64,000 bases of DNA from Sanghuangporus weigelae (lineage: Eukaryota; Basidiomycota; Agaricomycetes; Hymenochaetales; Hymenochaetaceae): assembly GCA_033182465.1 (NCBI GenBank), contig CP137322.1, positions 2,710,213-2,774,212 of the forward strand, written 5' to 3'. The translations under genes were made by a program, and so were the position numbers. Below are positions 52,201-64,000 of this stretch, piece by piece (within the stretch, counting starts at the first letter, position 1; each line of letters starts with the position of its first letter). The notes beneath the pieces were generated by a model. That model saw only the letters and a program-made list of their open reading frames with translations, was not told the origin of the DNA and ran no database searches.

Positions 52201-52539
52201 CAGGTGTAAGGCAGCAAGACTAACAGACATCAATCTCAAGGTGGTGAACACAACAACAAACAACAGGCTAAACGCAAGGTGCCAGGCTATCACATACTAT
52301 GTCAAAGTGAAGGTAAGTAGAATTCAAAGTAGTAGTACAAGAGTAGATACCTATATCAAAGTGAAGGTAAGTAGAATAGTAAGATAAGGAAACAAAAGAG
52401 TCAAACTACAGCCAGGTATCAAAAGTGACCATCACTGTCACGCTTTCCCGTAAGTCGCGTCGTGCTCATACGACTTCTATGCTGCACCACTCATGCAAAA
52501 CACAATTTTATACAAAATTAAGTATGTATATACATTGAT

Positions 52540-53150
52540 TAGCATCTAATAATATTCCTTCCACCATTAGTATTTCGTTGGTCCACCTTTAGCATTAATA
52601 ATTGCCTGTGCATGGCGAGGCACTGATAAAATATAGTTATTGATATGATTGATTGGTATTGCCTCCTAGGCCTCGAGAACAGCCTTTCTGAGCTCTCCAA
52701 CTGATGTAAGGTGATGACGATGGGCCCATATGTTCCGATTAAGGTCCAACCAGCAAGGTTCAATAGCGTTAATGTCTGGAGAAGTGGGTGGGTGTGGGAA
52801 CAGTGAAATGCCATGCTCTTCAAACCAGCGTTGCGTCGTTTTTGCCGTATGGCACCGTGCATTGTCTTGTTGAAATGTAACAGACCAATTGCATTGATGG
52901 ACCTCGTTGTAAAAATCCAAAAGACAGCCATCCAATACCTGCTCAATATATTTTTTCGCAGTCATTCCTCCTCCCTTGCCCCCAGGATACTCGAGTACAA
53001 TAAGCGGACCCTTCCTACCATACATGATGCAACCCTAGACCATAACACATACAGAGGACTTCTTAAAAGATGGTATAACGCAGTCCTTATGCCAGGTTTC
53101 ATCAGAGCGATGTGTACAATAAATGGTGCCAGGCTTAGGGTTAGAAGGGG
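52540..53150 (-). mobile_element. Tc1/mariner transposase fragment (DDE3 type), 5' truncated and with stops
   Basis: The minus strand reads THRSDETWHKDCVIPSF, then VMV-stop-GCIMYGRKGPLIVLE, VTFQQDNARCHTAKTTQRW, FPHPPTSPDINAIEPCW and NRNIWAHR, ending near AIINAKGGPTKY. QDNARCH carries the second catalytic Asp and SPDINAIEPCW the final acidic residue of the DDE triad. The helix-turn-helix region and first Asp are missing; the reading stops where the GGCCAG-rich repeats begin at 53150. Two internal TAG codons (53037-53035 and 52668-52666) are single transitions from TGG or CAG. It is inactive. Confidence 0.85.
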
Positions 53151-53159
53151 GGGGTGCTA

Positions 53160-53345
53160 GGCTTCATGCTAGGCCAGGTCGCCTCTTCATGCACAGGCCA
53201 GGCCAGCAGCCCTGATGCACAGGCCAGGCCAGCAGCCAGGCCGGCTGGGACAGGACATGTGTGTGGCTAGGACATGAATGCAGGCCAGCAGTGGTCAGGC
53301 CAGCAGCCAGGCTGGCTAGGACATGAATGCAGGCCACCAGGCCAT
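53160..53345. repeat. GGCCAG-rich tandem repeat
   Basis: Imperfect units around CAGGCCAGCAGCCAGGC and GGCTAGGACATGAATGCAGG recur several times, directly adjoining the truncated transposase. Confidence 0.75.
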
Positions 53346-53573
53346 AGATCTACTCAAGTGTATCAAAAAAATGGCAGAGTCACATGATGTTAAAATATAT
53401 TGAGTTTGAATTAACAGGGAGCCACATGACTCCACTGGATACAAAATATGCTGAACATGGAGTGTGCATATCCTACCCTCGGTAGAACGAAGAAAAGAAA
53501 AAACAAAGATATGAAAGAAAATATGAAAAGAAAACATGAATCGTCATTTATGAAGCACACAGGTGGACGAATC

Positions 53574-55921
53574 TCGGTGTAACACCGACAAGGGGAGGGC
53601 AATAAAAACACAAGTCACCTGACCTGCCTGTCCTCTTAACCAAAGGATCGGTGTAACACCGAGAGCGTAGAGATACAAGCAACAGTTGTGCTAAATATTT
53701 TCTACGAAACAAGCATAAGTAGATGAATATCAGTGCAACACTGGTGAAGAGAGAGCAGAGACAAAGCAAGCCGCAAGACTCATGCATGTAAATTCAGTGT
53801 AACACCGAGAGCAGGCCAAAGAACGGGCAGATCATGTGACACCCAATACTGCAGCAGATGTCTCTCGGAATAAGACCGAGGTATGATAAGTTTGATGTGC
53901 TGCTCTATTTCTCAAATGTCTGTCACATAAACGGCTCCTTTGAACACTGTGTGACATTACAAACTGCCTAATATCGGCTAATTTGCCGACTTGGTATACC
54001 AACATTGATCACATTATGTAATTAAACTGCTGTGCATCTGTCACATTTTTGGCTTGTTTGGCTTGCATTAATTTCCCGAAAGCATATTCCTCCTTGAAAA
54101 CATATGATGAGACACTTTTAATAGATAGATATTTGCTCGCAAACTTAGAATACATATTGGTTCACGGAAAAATGCACAGGACCAATTTGATCAGACTGAT
54201 GTTTGCTAGTTTCAACAAAATTGACCAGTGTATAATTTTTCCTGACCCAACAACTTTCCCGATTTACTTAAAAACTTGGATATCAGTTCATGTATACACT
54301 TTCTTGGTGTTTAAAGGACCGGTTAATGACTGTATATAGAGCTTGAACTGAACAGACTTACTTAGACCTGAGAATCAGCGAGCGGACCGCCGAAGTACGG
54401 CAGGACCGTCTGCAGAGCCGCACTCGGATCGATCTCGAACTTGACGGAGACGCGGTGGCGCGAAAGGACGAGCTTCACGCGCAAGACGACAGAAAAAATT
54501 GTAAAAAATCTAGAGAAACAAAACATCAGAAGAGCAACAAAAAAGAAGGCTCATCGCTCAGACGGAAAACATCAAGACATAGGGAGCCAACACAGGGCTC
54601 CCTAACTTGTTCTTAATAGTATTTCGGGTCATCACCACAGGTCATCGCCAAGCCAAGAGTAAGAGAAAAGGGACGCACAAGGTGACGGTTGTTTCATCGA
54701 TGCCGACAGGACGAGGCATTGCTCAAAGAGTTTTGGGGGAAACAAAGAGGGCCATGTGGACGGCTTTTAAAGCTCCAAAACAACTGACAGGGGAAGAAGC
54801 GTGAATAATTGAAAGAGTGAAGCTGGTGAAGGATCAAAGTAGCTATATGGAACAAGGGTCCCGGAGTGAAACTCGGTGCAACACCGCGAGGAGAGAGACG
54901 CCGAGAAACATAGCATGAGGTGGGTCGGAAATGAATTTCCGGTGATCGCAGCATTTAGAAGCTCGGTGCAGCACCGAGAAGGACGGACATGGAAGGCCCT
55001 TTTAACAAGTGACAAATATTCCGATGATTATCATACCAATCATTTCCAAATCAGTTATACAGATAACACGAAGTTACCCTGTCCGAGTATCACATCTTGA
55101 TGTTACACCGACTGCGGTGCACTGACTCGAAAGTCGTTCTATTCGTGGACTCGGATCCGAAAGAGGTTGACTCGATGTTACACCGAACTGCTGCGGAGGA
55201 TCGAATAGGTGATGCACGTGATCTTCGAGTGACGAGACTGCACCTCGGACTTGCACCGAAAACACAGTCCGTGATACGTGACGCTTAGTAAGCATGCCTG
55301 ACCTAAAAGACTCGGAACGTGACGTTCTACATGCACTCAGTGCTCGGTGCTACACCGAGTCTTGGATACACTCCCATGCTATATTTGATTGAGCCTCGTT
55401 TTTTTGGGGGAGTGAGAGGCGGATGCGCCTCCCTGCTCGGTGTAGGAACGAGTTTTTTTGCTTTCACCAGATACAAATGCAATCATATAATTCTTGTCAT
55501 CTGCCCTTATCCAGCATACAGTGCTCGGTGTCACACCGAGTTTTGGCCCAGCTGATTACATGCATATGTGATTCCATGGTGTTGGTTTCCAATAAATACC
55601 ATACTGTATTTTCCTCTTTTTTACTGTATACATGTTTTCAATAAATAACGGAGTGGCGTGGCTTACAAGTACAAGTAATGGCTTCGCATAGAAATCAAAT
55701 AAGGAAAGAATCAAACTGGAACGAGTTCATGGACATCAATGGATACACTCCCATGCTATATTTGATTGAGCCTCGTTTTTTTGGGGGGGGGGGGTGAGAG
55801 GCGGATGCGCCTCCCTGCTTGGTGTAGGAACGAGTTTTTTTGCTTTCACCAGATACAAATGCAATCATATAATTCTTGTCATCTGCCCTCATCCAGCATA
55901 TAGTGCTTGGTGTCACACCGA
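53574..55921. repeat. Dispersed 15-bp palindrome family, cluster A (about 15 copies)
   Basis: Consensus TCGGTGYNRCACCGA. Good copies begin at 53574, 53648, 53794, 54873, 54963, 55172, 55344, 55525 and 55907. Weaker copies begin at 53730, 53865, 55097, 55245, 55437 and 55819. The arms TCGGTG and CACCGA are reverse complements around a 3-bp centre. Many copies extend to C...G at the flanks. Spacing is irregular, so this is not a simple tandem repeat. No gene is recognised in 53.4-55.3 kb apart from a GC-rich minus-strand scrap at 54350-54480. Confidence 0.85.
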
Positions 55922-56118
55922 GTTTTGGCCCAGCTGATTACATGCATGTGTGATTCCATGGTGTTGGTTTCCAATAAATACCATACTGTATTTTCCTCTT
56001 TTTTTACTGTATACATGTTTTCAATAAATAACGGAGTGGCGTGGCTTACAAATACAAGTAATGGCTTCGCATAGAAATCAAACAAGGAAAGAATCAAACT
56101 GGAACGAGTTCATGGACA
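55363..56118. repeat. 378-bp tandem duplication covering the 3' end of a gene
   Basis: 55363-55740 and 55741-56118 are almost identical; the main difference is a longer G run in the second copy (about 55785). The duplicated unit contains the last ~11 codons and stop of the minus-strand gene at 56094 plus its downstream region, and two palindromes of the TCGGTG family. High identity means the event is recent. Confidence 0.85.
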
Positions 56119-59100
56119 TCAACAAACATTGCATCATCCCCACTTTCCGATCCTTTCTCCATCTGATTTTCAGCCATTCCTTCTTCAGCCATTCCTTCTT
56201 CAGCCATTCCTTCTTCATTTTCAGACTCGGCATCCTCTTCTTCTGAGTCGTCTCTATCATACATCTCCTCGATCCGTGCAGAAAAACGTGGGTTTATTGC
56301 AATGATGGGGCATGGCCCACTAGAGTTGCGTGGGATTCTGATGATACTTCCACGCTGCTGTCGAGAATCGAATAAGCGCGTTGATTGTGCATATGGCATG
56401 AAGACAAGCTGGTTAAATTTCCGCTTGAGCTCGCCCCTGACAGTTTCCAGCTCGTTCTCGCCCACAAGTCCCTCATTCAGGCACCTCCGATAAAATTCCA
56501 TGTACTGATTGAAGTATGTCATCTGTTTGTAGCCTTGCATTGCGATCGGAAAGTAGTGGTTGGGCCCTGGGAAGAGGTTCTCAAATGTCTTGTACCAGTC
56601 TTCTCTGTACTTCTGGTTGCGGAATGATACACATCGGAACCGCCGTTTGAGGTCAAATCCAGAATAGAACAAGGACATGTCCTTCTTCTCCTCCCTTGTT
56701 CGCCAGGTGTAAGGCTCTTCACGTGCTTTGGGCTGCCATGACTTCTCACCAAGGTCACTGAAGAGCTGCCTCCAGATGCTTGTGACGAAGAGACTGAGAT
56801 TGTCAATTGGTTCCCCATTGATGTCCTCGATGCAAGGCAACTCCACAACATTTTCCTCTGCTGGAATGTCAAAGTCCGGCTGGATATCATCAGAAAGGTA
56901 GATTTTCTTCGTGCGAGTGGACTTGTTGTGAGGAATCTCTCTCCTTGCTTGAAGGATATGAGCCGGAATTGAAATGAGTGATGCTGATGGGTAGAGGAAG
57001 TTGTTCAGATCCTCTTGTGATGCAAATGAGTAGAGTTGATGAAGCCTGGAATGAGTTCCTCGAACATCAACAATGGTTGGACATCCATCGTCAAGGAAGT
57101 CGAGTTGGCGGATTAAAAACATTCCACATCGCTGGACTGGCACTCCATTTGTGTGGGGAAGTGCTGCATGTTTGATTAACTTTTGTCGGTTTCCTTCCTC
57201 CGGCCGGGCACACAGGGCATTTGATATATAAATCAAAGTCGCTATCAGCATGAGAACTCTGGGTCGGCTGATGCTCTCGGAATTTGCTTGTAGAATCCAT
57301 TCCAATCCAATCTTGCAAGCCTTCTGTCGAAGGAGCTTGTACAACCTATAAAAATTTAAAATCAGAGCAGCAGAGTGAATGATGTGCCTGGGAGGACTTA
57401 CCACCACGTCTGGTTGGGGATACAAAAGGAGATATCCTTGGCAAGGTGCTGATTGATGGAATGGTTGTATGCATCCTCAAACAGAACACGAGGTTCAACT
57501 CGGGCTGGAAACGAGTCTTGCTTCTGAGCACATTCCTCAAATATTGTGCAGATTCTTTCCATATGGTCAATGGCAGTGACTTGCTTGCAATACATGCTGA
57601 GGAACTCGCGTGGATGAAGGAACTTGGCATGCTTGCCATTATCTACCAGATAGGTTGGGTTCTTTTCCGTGTTGTATGCCTGCAGGTAGTCAATGTAGCT
57701 GCGCTGAAGCCGTCCACATCGAAATCCGGCAGCTTCACTCAGGAGAGCTGTGGGATCTTCAGAGAAGTGACTGTAGTACTGCGCTACCTGCTGAAAGAAG
57801 CGCATGTCCCTATGTTCTGGTGCACCATAAGGTGGATTGAAGACATGGTGAAGGATGCTGGTATGGCTTATTTTGCGGATCAGAGTGACATGCCCTGGAA
57901 GGCCGAATTCCATGCCTACGTCGATAGTCGGTGGCCTGTTCCTGTCAATGTGGAGATCACTGTCATCAAAGTACTGTGTGACATCTCTGAGAACAGTTTC
58001 TGCAGCCTCCCTATCACCAAATTCGAAGCCGCCAAAACCCTTCGTCTGTCGAAGCTGGTGAAAGAAGAATGCATCTCGACCCCAGGGCTGGCTGTGGAGT
58101 CCTCGCATGAATTGCCTGGAGAACTCAGGCAGTAGATGGGCACTGATAGGGTAGTCAGAGTGAACAGGTCTGCCACTGTGCCGGGTCGCACGATAACGCT
58201 CTGATCGAGAGCTTGCTGGAAAGCGGTGAGGGTCAATGTCATGTCCAAGGCTGTGCAAATGTTGGATGGTCGGAAATGTGACATGGTCATACAGCCTGTC
58301 AGGCCACGTTTCATCATACATGTAAGGTTCATCGTGGTATTCTGCAGGCAGGTACAGCCTTACAGTGTGCCTCGATGCACAAGATGCGAAGGGAATGTTT
58401 GGGATATGGCACAGTGGAACATGCTTGGTCTGAACATAAATGGTCAGCAAGATGAGAACCAGATTTTCGGTTTAGCACCGACAACTGTACTGATAGCTTT
58501 TTAAAAATGACAGAAATACTATAAAATAGAGAAACCTCAGTGCAGCACCGAGCGCGTGCACACATGATTGAAACTAAGCAATGCTAAGTTTTTCGGTGTT
58601 GCACCGAGAGCATTGCAGTGAAGTGCAGTGGCTCTGGCTCGGTGATTTAAAAGTAGGCAATGTTCAGTTTTTCGGTGCTACACCGAGTACAGTGCGGTGA
58701 GGTGCAGAAAAGAGGTGCATGACTCGGTGTTGCACCGAGTAATGATTACAAGGTCAGCCCTGCATTCATTCTCAGTGTTACACCGAGCACATCATGGAAA
58801 GGAAAATCTTTTGTTGCATATGATATAAATAAGGATTTTATAATGATGACTCACTCTCCCATTTGGCCTACGCAATTTGTAAGTTTGTTTCAGAGAATGA
58901 TCCACCATGAACTTCGGCGGCCAAATGATCAGCATCAGTGGGTGTGCATAGGGCAAGTTGTCTGAGGCAAAGAGACATGAATCGAAGTCACCCTTGATTT
59001 CCAGGTTGGTGTCTGCACCTAGCAGGTTGGCTCAGTAGTTGTTCAAGTCAATGCTGGCTTGGTCACCACTGTCTGGGTTCTTCCCTGTGAGGACAAAGGA

Positions 59101-59286
59101 GACAAAACGTTTTTGGGCTTCCTCTGTCTCAAATGTGGCAGGATCACTGTGTAGACCATGGTGATTGGCAGCATGTCCTGCAGCCAGGTTGAGTGCAATC
59201 CTATTGAACTGGCTCAAGTGCATGAACTCTACTGTCCCAAGTGGATCAGTGGTGAGGTGTTGGACTAGCTGGAGCGGTTCCTCCAT
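56094..59286 (-). CDS. Large protein of unknown function, one premature TGA
   Basis: Exons 59286-58855, 58429-57402 and 57345-56094 join in phase to about 903 codons. I recognise no domain. The N-terminal part reads MEEPLQLVQHLTTDPLG and, after a TGA at 59034-59032 (probably TGG originally), continues through LIIWPPKFMVDHSL. The middle is rich in His, Tyr and Arg (HVTFPTIQHLHSLGHDI, GVLMEFGLPGH-like text). The third exon has KKDMSLFYSGFDLKRRFRCV and NHYFPIAMQGYKQMTYFNQY. The C-terminus is acidic with a 5-aa repeat, MAEEG three times (56171-56216). Intron 1 (58854-58430) is 425 nt and holds six TCGGTG palindromes; intron 2 (57401-57346) is 56 nt. The setting and single stop suggest a repeated, transposon-associated family, perhaps recently inactivated. 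Confidence 0.55.
58467..58786. repeat. 15-bp palindrome family, cluster B inside intron 1
   Basis: Six copies of TCGGTGYNRCACCGA (starts 58467, 58537, 58593, 58672, 58724, 58772) at 48-79 bp spacing, all within the 425-nt intron of the unknown gene. The splice sites on both sides are intact. Confidence 0.85.
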
Positions 59287-59578
59287 GATGATAAGTTGGA
59301 ATGACTGTCTTGCTTGCTCACTTGGTCTTCTTTTTTTTTATCAATTTTTAACACAGATCAGATCTCTTAGAATGGACAGATGCCCGAAATCCGATGCCCC
59401 TGGATTGCATCATTACACACATTTGCGCAACAATCTTCATTCTTGAATCTTGAATGATAAGAAATCTTATCATTCTAACAAGATCAGTTCCTTATATATA
59501 CAACCAACCAACAAAAGGCACATGCCACAAATTCTGGGACATACGACGAACATGAAAAAATGGGTGCTGAGCAGAAGA

Positions 59579-61308
59579 CTACCTTGCCTGTTTGTCCCGG
59601 CCTCCGCCTCCGCCTCCGCCCCTACCTCTGCTGCCCTTACCTTTGCCCCGTCCTTTGAGTCCGCGATTGACCTGTGTTGTTGAAGCAAGGCTCTTTAACG
59701 CACGTACTTCATCGGGATCTAGACCTTTCGCTTTGGGCCGGTGCAGCATTGGTTTCTTGCTCGGACCGGGTTCTGCGTACATTTGTGCTATTCGACGTTT
59801 CTTGTTGCTCGATCGGATGTTCAGATACGGGTCATCGTCGTCTTCGTCGGGCTCTTCCTCTTCTTGCAGTCCTTCACCTTGGCTATCTCTGTTCGTGGCT
59901 TCCACTCCCTGTCCCTGTCCCTCGCCAGTTCCATTTGTGGCCTCGTACTCAAAACCATCATCAGGGCCGATTCCGAAATCCGCATCGATATTCGGAGCGG
60001 ACGGTGGGGGTGGGGACAGCGAGAGCTCTGAACTTGCTGGAGGCTCGCGACGTGAGACCCCGTCCCTAATCCCTTCGGATGCATCGTTCTCCGGTTCCTC
60101 TGATTCATCGTCATTGGACTGCACAGCCAGGTCCCGAACCATGCTATCCAGTCACCCTTGCTCAGCCGGCTTCTTTGTCTCGAGAATGCCGGTGCTCGAA
60201 TTCACATCAGGGGCCTCGTCATCTCTCGATCAATTGTCGGTCCGCTCCCTTGAGTCCACCTGAAAAGTGTCTACCTGAGTGCGAGCACGGTTCGTGCTGG
60301 GATCGATGCGCTTCGTTCCTGAGAGTTCATGAACGACCTCCATGCTTTGAGATGTCCTCCGAGGTCCTGGTCTGCCGACAGGAGCAACGCCAGTGTCGAT
60401 TTCTGAAGGCGGAACGACCGGTGGTTGCGGGCAGTCGTCGACTTCCATCTGCGGCTGGTTTGGTGCCGCAGAACGAATGACTTTGGCATGAGAAATCGTC
60501 TCAAGGGTCTGAGGTCTTTTCGGCTCGGTCAACGATGTGGTCGTGTTAGACGAAACGACCGGGGCGGGTATCACACTCCGCTGTCCTGTATTACCCGCGA
60601 GGGTTTCGGCCGGTGTTTGCAGGGCGCCGACTCCGGGACCGCTGGGGGTATCGGTCGTTTTGGTCCCTGCCTTCGTCGCTGTTATCTCGCTGGTAGTCGA
60701 TGGGTTTTTGTCTGTCGCAGGCAAAACTCCCTGCTTGACCGCTGCCCTTGCACGAGGCTTTGGTTTTGCCTTTCCCTTCATTGCCGTTGCGTTGCTGGAA
60801 GTCGATGGGACCTCGTCCGTCACCGTCGAAGCTCCCTCCTTCACCCCCTCAGGTTTCGACGTTCCCCGTTTCTTCGCCTGTTCGACGGGCTGCAATGCGG
60901 CTTCTGTATCCGAGTTTATCTCCTTGGGCGACTTCGCTTTCGACGCGGAGGATTTCGCGGCAGCCTTCCGAGTCCTTTTGGGCTTCTCCTTTCCATCATT
61001 CTCCCTTTTGGCATCCTCGTGGCCTGGAGCTTTTCGCATCCCACCACGTTTACGGTCCACTTTCTTAGGTACCTCATCGTCATCAGAGTCGTCCTGGCTT
61101 TCGATGGTTGCTCTATCCGTATCACGTTCCTCTGCAGTCAAGTTTCAGTCTATCATAGCACCCCAATACATGAATGATAGTCCTCACTATAGAAAACGTC
61201 CAAAAGGTAGATTTTACTCTTTCCCGTTCTAGTAAGGAATTCGTCGGTCGTTTCCTGTACGATCGGGAAATATACCCGGCAGAGTTGTTCGTTCGGTTGA
61301 CGATACAT
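59579..61308 (-). pseudogene. Gene of unknown function with two in-frame TGA codons and an RGG-type tail
   Basis: Exon A 61308-61188 (MYRQPNEQLCRVYFPIVQE, TGKSKIYLLDVFYK) and exon B 61131-59579 are linked by a 56-nt GT-AG intron in phase. Exon B is highly charged (RDTDRATIESQDDSDDDEVP, KKPKRTRKAAAK-like basic runs, then Ser/Thr/Pro-rich text) and ends in GRGKGKGSRGRGGGGGGG, an RGG-like RNA-binding tail. A nuclear, nucleic-acid-binding role is a guess. Two TGA codons at 60232-60230 and 60154-60152 interrupt an otherwise open frame; no intron removes them in phase, and both fit CGA to TGA changes. An LTR-like element starts 9 bp upstream of the ATG, so the original 5' part or promoter may be lost. 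Two separate genes sharing a frame is less likely. Confidence 0.5.
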
Positions 61309-61316
61309 GCGACTGA

Positions 61317-62740
61317 TGTAGTGCGCCGCACTTGCCTGTACCGGTACGTCGGTACAGGCCCCTCAGTACTCTGTACAGTATACCATCGTGCGGCGACCGC
61401 TACACCTCTGCCGCTCCTTAAGACCTTCCAAACCGCCGCTCCTTGATTCGCGGCTCAACCAATACGTCCGCCGCCTCCCGTCCTTCGAAGACTTCCCAAA
61501 CCGAGTATGCTTGGCCAGCCGCACTTTCTGATACGTGGGCGCCTGGAACGTTGCAGCGGATGTATCGGCTACGGCGGCGGAAGGATATCGAACCGTATAG
61601 CCGATGGAATATTCGTCGGCTCCTGTTGATTGGCTTATCCGACGTCGGGTAGTGGTTTTACAAGGTCCCAGGTACCACGTTTCATGTTCATACCATGCTG
61701 CTTCGTGCGCCGAGTCCGATTGTCGGACGCGGCGGCCACTCGCGTATTCCCCTTTTAGTATTATTGCCTCCCCTGACGTTTCATATTCGTGTGGTGCGAC
61801 CACTTAGCGATCCGAGCGCGCCCGATGATGATGCGCCGCGCCAATCACCGCCAGCCCGATCAGCGCGCGCTCGTGTCTTGGCAGCTTCGCGGCGCGCCCC
61901 GATCTTCGGGTCCGCACCGATTGCGCGCCTGTGACGCGCCGTCACTGTCGCCGTCTCTGTGACGCTCTTCCCCAGCATTCCCCAGTATATATAGACCTCA
62001 TGTATGTAGTGTTCAGAAGCAGTAGTTCAGAATAGATCTCAGTGCACTCCTCTCGTCTCTGTTAGCCCCTTTTGCTCTCCATCGCCTTCGCCGAAGACCG
62101 TGTGCCGACACAAGACGCCGCCCCCGTTTAAGGGAATAACAGGGGCACGTGCTCACTCGCCACTGCGCAAGTGATCGGCAGAGCTATCCCCCGTCCTGGG
62201 AATAGGCAGCGCCATCGCCCTCTTGACAATCGGGGACACCATCGCTCTCCTGGTAATCGGCGACACCGTCGTTCTCCTGGTAATCGGCGGCACCGTCGCT
62301 CTACTAGTAATCGCCGCCGCTCGCAGGACTCGACAGCGCCGTCGCTCTACTACTTATTCGCGACGCCGACATCTTGACTCGTCGGCGGCTCTGTCCCGTA
62401 CATTATCGGCGGCGCCCCCTCTATACGCGGATCATACCATAGCCCTTACGATTGAGCTCTCCCCACGACTGAGCGCGCATCCCGATCGGCAGCAGTGCTT
62501 CCGGGTCAAATTGTCCGCCACGGCACCGAGCTGTCCAGGAGGTTTAGCCACGAGTTGGATCCCTTCTTACCTCTCCGATCTTTGACACCGCCGACGCCTC
62601 TCTGTGGTCGAACACCGTCGCCTTCGCCGCTGCTTAAGAGGGTCTGATAGTCTACAGCGGTCGCCGCACGATGGTATACTGTACAGAGTACTGAGGGGCC
62701 TGTACCGACGTACCGGTACAGGCAAGTGCGGCGCACTACA
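61317..62740. mobile_element. LTR-like element of 1424 bp with perfect 85-bp terminal inverted repeats
   Basis: 61317-61401 and 62656-62740 are exact reverse complements over 85 bp. The element starts TGTAGTG and ends CACTACA, the TG...CA form of retroviral LTRs. Inside are a TATA-like GTATATATAGACC (about 61984) and a tandem 30-bp repeat (62221-62340). No matching target-site duplication was found (ACTGA left, ACGAG right) and no primer-binding site follows. LTRs normally have inverted ends of only a few bp, so a foldback or TIR element is the alternative. Confidence 0.6.
62221..62340. repeat. 30-bp tandem repeat, about four units
   Basis: Units of the type TCCTGGTAATCGGCGACACC plus 10 bp, period exactly 30, so any frame would encode a 10-residue repeat. 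It lies inside the LTR-like element. Confidence 0.8.
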
Positions 62741-64000
62741 ACGAGAATGAAATCGAAAAATGCAGACGCGATATAAAAGAATACGCGAAGGACCTGTTTA
62801 AAGACGCTTCTCAGACATCATTACCACCTTTCAGAGCAATTAATCATACCATACCGTTGATAGACGAAACCAAGCAATATAAATTTCGTCGTTCGACCTG
62901 TCCTGACCCATTAAGAGAACAATGGAGAAAGAAACGAAAAGATTACATACAAAGTGGGAGATGGAAGGTAATAACAGGATCGAACACGATGCCTATGTTA
63001 TTACTTCAGAAACCTAGAAAGAATAAAGATGAGCCTATACGTCTAAGAACAGTAGTTGACTTACGAGAACGAAACGCGAACACTCGTAAATTATCATCAC
63101 CATTACCAGATATTGAATCTGTGTTGCGAAGAGTCGCATCTAAGAAGTACAAATTGTTAATAGATGGTAAAGATGCTTATGAACAAATAAGAATAATACC
63201 AGAACACGTACTGAGAACAATATTCAATACACCTGACGGAACAATGGTTAGTGAAGTTATGCAGTTAGGTGATTGTAATAGCGGCGCTACGTACCAAGCG
63301 TTAATGAATCATATCTTCCAACCCTATCTAGGGGATTGGATGAATATCTATCTGGATGACTTAGTGATTTATTCTGATACGATCGAAGAACACTTACGAC
63401 ATTTGAAGACAGTTATTGACATCTTGCGTCGTGAGCAATTCTACTTGAGCGAACACAAAATGCAACTGTTTCAAAGCGAACTAAAGATATTAGGACATAT
63501 AATCGATGACAATGGAATAAGAATGGACCCACATAAGGTTGATTCGATTAGAAATTGGAAGGTACCTACTAATAAAGACTCATTAAAACGATTCTTAGGA
63601 GCTGTGGGATACTTAGCACCGAACGTACCTCAACTAAGAATACCAATGTCAGTATTATCGAACGTTTCAGGCAAAACGGCTCAATTTCGATGGACTTTTA
63701 CTGAACACCGAGCGTTTAACCAAATAATAAAGTTAGTTTACGACTTTCGAAACCACCATCGTGTAGTTTTACAATATGGAAATGACGCACCTCCCATAAA
63801 CATTATTACCGATGCTTCACATACTGGAATAGGAGGAATAGTTAGTCAAGGTGAAGATTGGCGAAACGCCAAAATAGCAGCATTCTATTCTGCTAAAATG
63901 AATTCTGCACAACAGAATTACCCTGTACATGATAAGGAATTATTAGCAGGCGTCGAAACAATGTTACGACATAGAAATTTATTACAAGGAACTCACTTTA
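62740..64000 (+). mobile_element. Ty3/Gypsy pol: reverse transcriptase and RNase H, continues past the right edge
   Basis: One uninterrupted frame of 420 codons from 62740 to the window end. It opens with the region before RT (PPFRAINHTIPLID), then RTVVDLRERNANT, LLIDGKDAYEQIRI (first RT Asp), MQLGDCNSGATYQ and YLDDLVIYSD (the DD pair). The thumb follows (KILGHIIDDNGI, LKRFLGAVGYLAP), then RNase H with IITDASHTGIGG and HDKELLAGVE. The gag and protease parts are missing on the left, where the LTR-like element abuts directly. Integrase would lie beyond 64000. The frame is AT-rich in codon choice (ATA, TTA, AGA), unlike the neighbouring genes, and lacks stops, so it is a young or still functional copy at least in this part. 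Confidence 0.9.

Follow-up and report, generated by a model that had tools for sequence, protein, structure and literature searches.

What is a 15-bp palindrome doing some twenty times within 5.2 kb of a mushroom chromosome? The palindrome lies in the terminal 64 kb of contig C5 (CP137322.1; 2,774,212 bp) of Sanghuangporus weigelae, a stretch referred to here as the window, and its copies are found beside and within a single-copy gene. We propose, tentatively and with a probability of roughly 0.47, that a DNA-binding protein recognises it as a homodimer, and that it is set in regularly spaced arrays within a subtelomeric block that would be joined to the chromosome at a telomere seam, in the manner of the Y' elements of yeast. 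We chose this explanation because exact sites occur nowhere but in four blocks at chromosome ends, each block carries the seam, all have one polarity, and four palindromes have outlasted the spacers around them. Both the binding and the function of the palindrome are predictions from sequence.

The pattern searched was TCGGTGNNNCACCGA (15 bp), and the mismatch tolerance is stated with each count. With at most 2 mismatches, 20 matches were found in the window, 18 of them at 53574-58786, against a mean of 2.08 and a maximum of 6 in 100 shuffled windows. Within 53574-58786, 8 sites were exact, 15 had at most 1 mismatch, 18 at most 2 and 21 at most 3. At the last tolerance the remainder of the window held 17 sites, every one with 2 or more mismatches, and from this outside rate about 1.5 of the 21 inside would be expected by chance. 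Thus the initial estimate of about 21 copies in 5.2 kb stands, but the accompanying statement that the arms are perfectly complementary in most copies does not, since this is true of only 8 of the 21 (15 with at most one mismatch). The three central letters, which were no part of the search criteria, read YNR in all 21 sites inside the interval versus 7 of the 17 outside. An odd-length inverted repeat with such a centre fits a homodimer, as the site can be read as two 7-bp half-sites (TCGGTGY) with a one-base spacer.

The sites fall into three clusters in the window (features are on the plus strand unless stated otherwise). Cluster I (53574..53879) has sites at 53574, 53648, 53730, 53794 and 53865, spaced by 74, 82, 64 and 71. 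Cluster II (54873..55539) has eight, at 54873, 54963, 55097, 55172, 55245, 55344, 55437 and 55525, and cluster III has six, at 58467, 58537, 58593, 58672, 58724 and 58772, all within the first intron of the gene. The two others, 55819 and 55907, arose when about 380 bp were duplicated in tandem (55363-55739 / 55740-56122, together 55363..56122; 96% identity), an event that also copied the last codons of the gene. When this pair is excluded, the 19 sites of clusters I-III are separated by 16 intervals with a mean of 78 and a coefficient of variation of 0.26, a regularity reached by 0 of 20,000 random placements. Spacing of this kind would suit an array occupied by several dimers; it also fits an old tandem repeat. 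The sequence between copies had been described as unrelated. This holds between the three clusters, whose spacers showed no similarity by BLAST, but one 61-bp pair in the intron cluster was 80% alike (BLAST), and flank identity between clusters was slightly above that of shuffled flanks (15.08/50 vs 14.30/50, standard deviation 0.23). An asymmetry between the arms (14 left-arm vs 8 right-arm changes), which might have pointed to RNA wobble pairing, was too weak and was dropped.

We scanned the whole genome (33.87 Mb, 13 contigs) and found 20 exact sites, all in four clusters, versus 1 for the reversed pattern as control. The clusters lie on C1 (8.5-9.9 kb), at the left of C5 (21.6-21.8 kb; C5-left), at the right of C5 (the window) and on C10 (0.35-0.57 kb). 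All 20 sites are within 21.9 kb of a contig end (the farthest at 21.8 kb), in zones that together cover about 1.7% of the genome. With at most 3 mismatches, the window holds 21 sites, C1 10, and C5-left and C10 5 each. With one mismatch, 83 places were found genome-wide vs 38 for the reversed control. The looser 13-base core CGGTGYNRCACCG occurred at 29 places, 24 in the four clusters and 5 elsewhere (control 3), which puts the motif at background outside the clusters.

These palindrome blocks represent two subtelomeric lineages, one made up of the window and C1 blocks (97-98% identical) and the other of the C10 and C5-left blocks (92%). In the first, window 53131-55305 corresponds to C1:8168-10358 on the reverse strand (10358 down to 8168), with ten sites whose spacing is the same in both copies. 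The five sites of cluster I are found on C1 from 9885 down to 9594, at identical distances, and within cluster II the C1 copy stops at 55305, between the sites at 55245 and 55344. In the second, C10:192-717 and C5:21460-22027 have five sites each. About 2 kb from the C5-left block, a subtelomeric reading frame with an OrsD domain was also observed (L007:3117-4307).

The lineages align with each other over window 53554-53811, where the first four palindromes of cluster I are matched with those of C10. In this alignment, the palindromes are identical at 55 of 60 positions and the spacers at 123 of 197, a difference reached by 4 of 20,000 random placements. A similar result was obtained for two 137-bp units of array b (29/30 for palindromes vs 75/107 for spacers). 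Between the more recent copies, window 53473-55305 and C1, there are 29 differences over 1,833 aligned bp, 25 of them transitions and 15 at CpG. The apparent constraint on the palindrome is therefore visible over the longer time and absent between recent copies. Separately, the excess of transitions and the 15 changes at CpG suggest cytosine methylation in these blocks.

Could the palindromes simply be what is left of an old tandem satellite, without function, being its slowest-decaying or most homogenised part? The 137-bp tandem unit of array b speaks for this, and in the recent copies decay by CpG transitions strikes the palindromes too. However, in both older comparisons the palindromes outlast the spacers despite a mutable CpG in each arm, and clusters I, II and III have no common spacer sequence by BLAST. 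We regard a satellite remnant as improbable. The related suggestion that one larger degenerate repeat explains the copies is partly right, as the blocks have been duplicated as wholes and a 137-bp unit underlies array b; on the other hand, the three window clusters share only the palindrome by BLAST. A short hairpin mobile unit, also suggested initially, was not borne out: the four palindromes are at matching places in the two-lineage alignment, where no filled/empty pair was seen, and there are no exact copies outside the four clusters. Of the ideas put forward in the initial annotation, a protein-binding site is the best supported, short of proof, because of the odd-length inverted repeat, the YNR centre, the regular spacing, and conservation above the spacer between diverged copies.

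The four blocks have one border in common, which consists of a 7-12 nt telomere-like stretch ending in TTAG, followed by AAGG, a G-run and GGCCAGGCC-type repeats. In the window, this is the seam CTTAGGGTTAG at 53134..53144, with AAGG and a G-run after it; the G-run and the GGCCAGGCC-type minisatellite, which was recognised by eye, occupy 53145..53340 and have similar sequence in the C1, C5-left and C10 blocks. A 14-base seam pattern, CCYCCTTCTAACCC, matched the genome four times, in each case at one of the four blocks (control 0), and the seam faces the centromere in 4 of 4, giving all blocks identical polarity towards the chromosome end. The seam also agrees with the telomere repeat of this genome, mostly an alternation of TTAGGG and TTAGGC (a 12-nt unit), which was detected at 24 of 26 contig ends: on all 13 contig starts and on 11 of 13 contig ends, the right ends of C5 (the end of the window) and of C13 being without it. 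Five 12-letter forms of this alternating unit retrieved no fungal-telomere paper, by title, among the literature matches listed.

On the centromere side of the window seam we identified the first 730 bp (52404..53133) of a dispersed element of 1,332 bp with 37-bp terminal inverted repeats, presumably a DNA transposon, which is 95-96% identical to the interior copies L065 and L066. The element is complete in two of the three interior copies fetched (L065:520-1851 and L066), while the third (L067) diverges after about 875 bp. In the window, it is cut at 53133, where the telomere repeat starts, and reads GGTGCCAGG followed directly by CTTAGGGTTAG, vs GGTGCCAGG followed by GTTTGAACC in the interior copies. 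Since the transposon is cut in mid-element exactly at the telomere repeat, the simplest reading is that a break was healed by telomere addition and that the short telomere tract later served to join the block, the succession of these events being the part that we infer. The chromosome end would have broken and received a short telomere cap; a block from the end of another chromosome would then have been joined at the seam by break-induced copying or end exchange. The Y' elements of yeast are thought to spread by comparable break-induced copying or end exchange. The cut transposon would thus be a readable record of a chromosome break, its telomere healing and the later joining of a subtelomeric block.

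The same seam could be explained by a retroelement that joins telomeres, of the FoTeR, MoTeR, HeT-A or terminon type, or by truncated non-autonomous copies of one, whose RNA would have a telomere-complementary 3' end and be copied onto the chromosome end. Read from telomere to centromere, the gene would be in the sense direction and the seam would be the 3' end. This would account for the constant TTAG/AAGG junction at four different proximal sequences with 7-12 nt of telomere sequence, and for the single polarity in 4 of 4 blocks; the gene of the window also runs towards the seam. On the sense strand the border reads ...CTTCTAACCC, and FoTeR of Fusarium oxysporum is likewise a chromosome-end element whose 3' ends continue into TAACCC repeats and whose truncated copies, which retain the telomeric side, outnumber full ones (PMC12857005). 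However, FoTeR is a non-LTR retrotransposon with tracts of 3-7 telomere repeats at its 3' end, vs one or two at the seams here. Six-frame scans of window 53131-56093 and C10:186-720, plus the gene exons, found no Pfam domain and hence no reverse transcriptase in the parts scanned; the C1 and C5-left blocks, which were outside these scans, are both copies of scanned blocks. Among the best 150 of 184 candidate genome places for RVT_1 none was inside a block, in a set that also misses the Ty3-like gene of the window. No Rfam family matched at gathering score in window 52500-60500 or in the six fetched loci. We consider a retroelement unlikely, although we retain it as a rival, and prefer recombination between ends through the seam over RNA copying onto ends as the way in which the blocks would have spread; the window/C1 duplication at 97-98% is compatible with such recombination. 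A more speculative version, which we doubt strongly, is a telomere-joined selfish element of mushrooms, whose blocks would attach to broken and freshly healed ends in a single orientation, always at the same phase of the telomere repeat, helped by a putative dimeric protein (possibly the product of the orphan gene described below) that bridges arrays of different ends.

As for the role of a putative protein bound to these arrays, organising or silencing the chromosome end appears likeliest, by analogy with SPE2/PfSIP2 of Plasmodium falciparum, for which 777 sites were predicted, 94% of them in subtelomeric repeats and next to subtelomeric genes (PMC2829057). The likeness lies in one sequence-specific bipartite site in arrays concentrated at chromosome ends, beside subtelomeric genes; SPE2, however, is bound through two AP2 domains of a known protein, whereas here we have a 15-bp palindrome, a predicted site and far fewer copies. 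Borders formed by interstitial telomere sequences, with telomere-addition healing of breaks inferred, are also reported for the subtelomeric repeats of Pyricularia (PMC8381367). There the interstitial tracts have at least 2 repeats, vs 7-12 nt here, and a search of the text of that paper gave no hit for palindromes or binding sites.

The Y' element of Saccharomyces, likewise a subtelomeric block, is bordered by telomere sequence towards the centromere, contains a minisatellite and an intron-bearing gene, and encodes a helicase. The blocks described here resemble it in being confined to ends, in their centromere-side telomere sequence (4/4, 7-12 nt), in the minisatellite and, in the window, in the intron-bearing gene. 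They differ in that Pfam detected no helicase domain in the gene or the rest of the window block, in having palindrome arrays instead, and in numbering only four. Lacking a helicase domain, they may be said to work like Y' elements, but not to be Y' elements. To our knowledge, few organisms are known to have arrays of a sequence-defined binding site that occur only at chromosome ends. Among the literature matches listed, none described subtelomeric palindrome arrays in mushrooms or basidiomycetes, as far as titles and the beginnings of abstracts tell. The exact palindrome letters, in six forms of 13 to 15 letters, were not found in the 5.39 million open papers searched, which makes the palindrome a ready probe for a putative subtelomere-binding protein in a mushroom.

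Several points weigh against the binding-site explanation. Just four blocks were found across 26 chromosome ends, and as they form two lineages they stand for few independent events. The random-placement test between lineages is one pairwise alignment, with four of the five cluster I sites. In the window/C1 pair the palindromes are not spared at all, with 4 of the 29 differences in their 150 of the 1,833 bp, where about 2.4 are expected. The arms are imperfect in 13 of the 21 window sites, and an old tandem repeat could be the source of the regular spacing. At 7-12 nt the seam tract is short, and the order of break and healing was examined on the window block only.

The gene next to the arrays (56094..59286, minus strand) has exons at 59286-58855, 58429-57402 and 57345-56094. 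Its first intron (58430..58854, minus strand; 425 bp, GTGAGT...TTCAG) contains all six palindromes of cluster III, and the second is 56 bp long. The exon order is supported by the homologue P0001, also from S. weigelae (98% of the query aligned, at 80% identity), which runs uninterrupted across both intron positions. Exon 1 has an in-frame TAG at 59034-59032 (codon 85), so that either this copy is a pseudogene or the assembly is wrong at that base. Only a distant relative, P0002 from Suillus clintonianus (23% identity over 87%), was found besides, and a homologue search with a three-row alignment returned the same two proteins and no others. Neither the pieces of the gene nor P0001 or P0002 matched anything in Pfam, a PDB sequence search gave a single match that is not meaningful (E 0.81), and a model of P0001 built from an alignment of two rows failed (mean pLDDT 27.7). 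On these searches the gene is a member of an orphan family, and not a recognisable transposase.

Altogether 16 of the 21 window sites are in the intron and 3' flank of this gene (clusters II and III and the two duplicated sites). Control of the gene through these arrays would be the main alternative to the organiser or silencer role for the putative bound protein. A particular form of it would be that the palindromes are operators of a pathway-type Zn2Cys6 regulator, with the site TCGG-N7-CCGA, controlling a subtelomeric gene. Inverted CGG/CCG triplets are the usual site form of this class, which, with the position of the 16 sites, argues for it. Yet most of the sites lie downstream of the gene or in its intron and not in a promoter, and the C1, C10 and C5-left blocks have arrays without the gene. 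On contigs that bear a cluster, even the nearest of the 28 Zn_clus matches in the genome (six-frame, intron-blind) lies over 300 kb from it, which is weak evidence as a regulator need not be linked. Perhaps such a regulator is involved, but we find it unlikely.

Is the palindrome then a signature of the adjacent gene, which the initial annotation had called transposon-like? In this case the arrays would be subterminal transposase-binding sites of a CACTA/Plavaka-like DNA transposon, with the 56094-59286 gene as its transposase. Such transposons usually carry arrays of short binding sites near their ends, and the gene lies between clusters II and III. Nevertheless, the gene is single-copy in this genome and matches nothing in Pfam (nor does P0002), and the C1, C10 and C5-left blocks are without it. 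When borders were compared in four cases (the window block with and without the gene, C10 and C5-left), the result was chance matches of 8-9 bp and no terminal inverted repeats. Cluster III is intronic rather than at an element end, and beyond exon 1 the sole palindrome match is one site with 2 mismatches, at 61906. Plavaka/CACTA-type transposons are present in mushroom genomes, but they have defined termini and target duplications of 2-3 bp (PMC12730594), and no inverted termini were seen here. A DNA transposon of this kind is very improbable.

Other repeats are found in and beyond the block. Between clusters I and II there is an unrelated dispersed repeat (53917..54302, no strand assigned), MITE-like (miniature inverted-repeat transposable element) by size and copy number and shared with C1. 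It has at least 39 further genome matches at E < 1e-20 (40 of 65 candidates scored), and among those scored none is at an exact palindrome site. Beyond the gene, a high-copy element with 85-bp inverted repeats (61317-62740) has dozens of matches at 90-98% among the best 40 of 162 candidates. At the extreme end of contig C5 we detected a gene with reverse transcriptase and RNase H domains, which make it Ty3-like (62857-63999). As this gene is at the very end and the telomere is absent there, the C5 assembly probably stops in a repeat.

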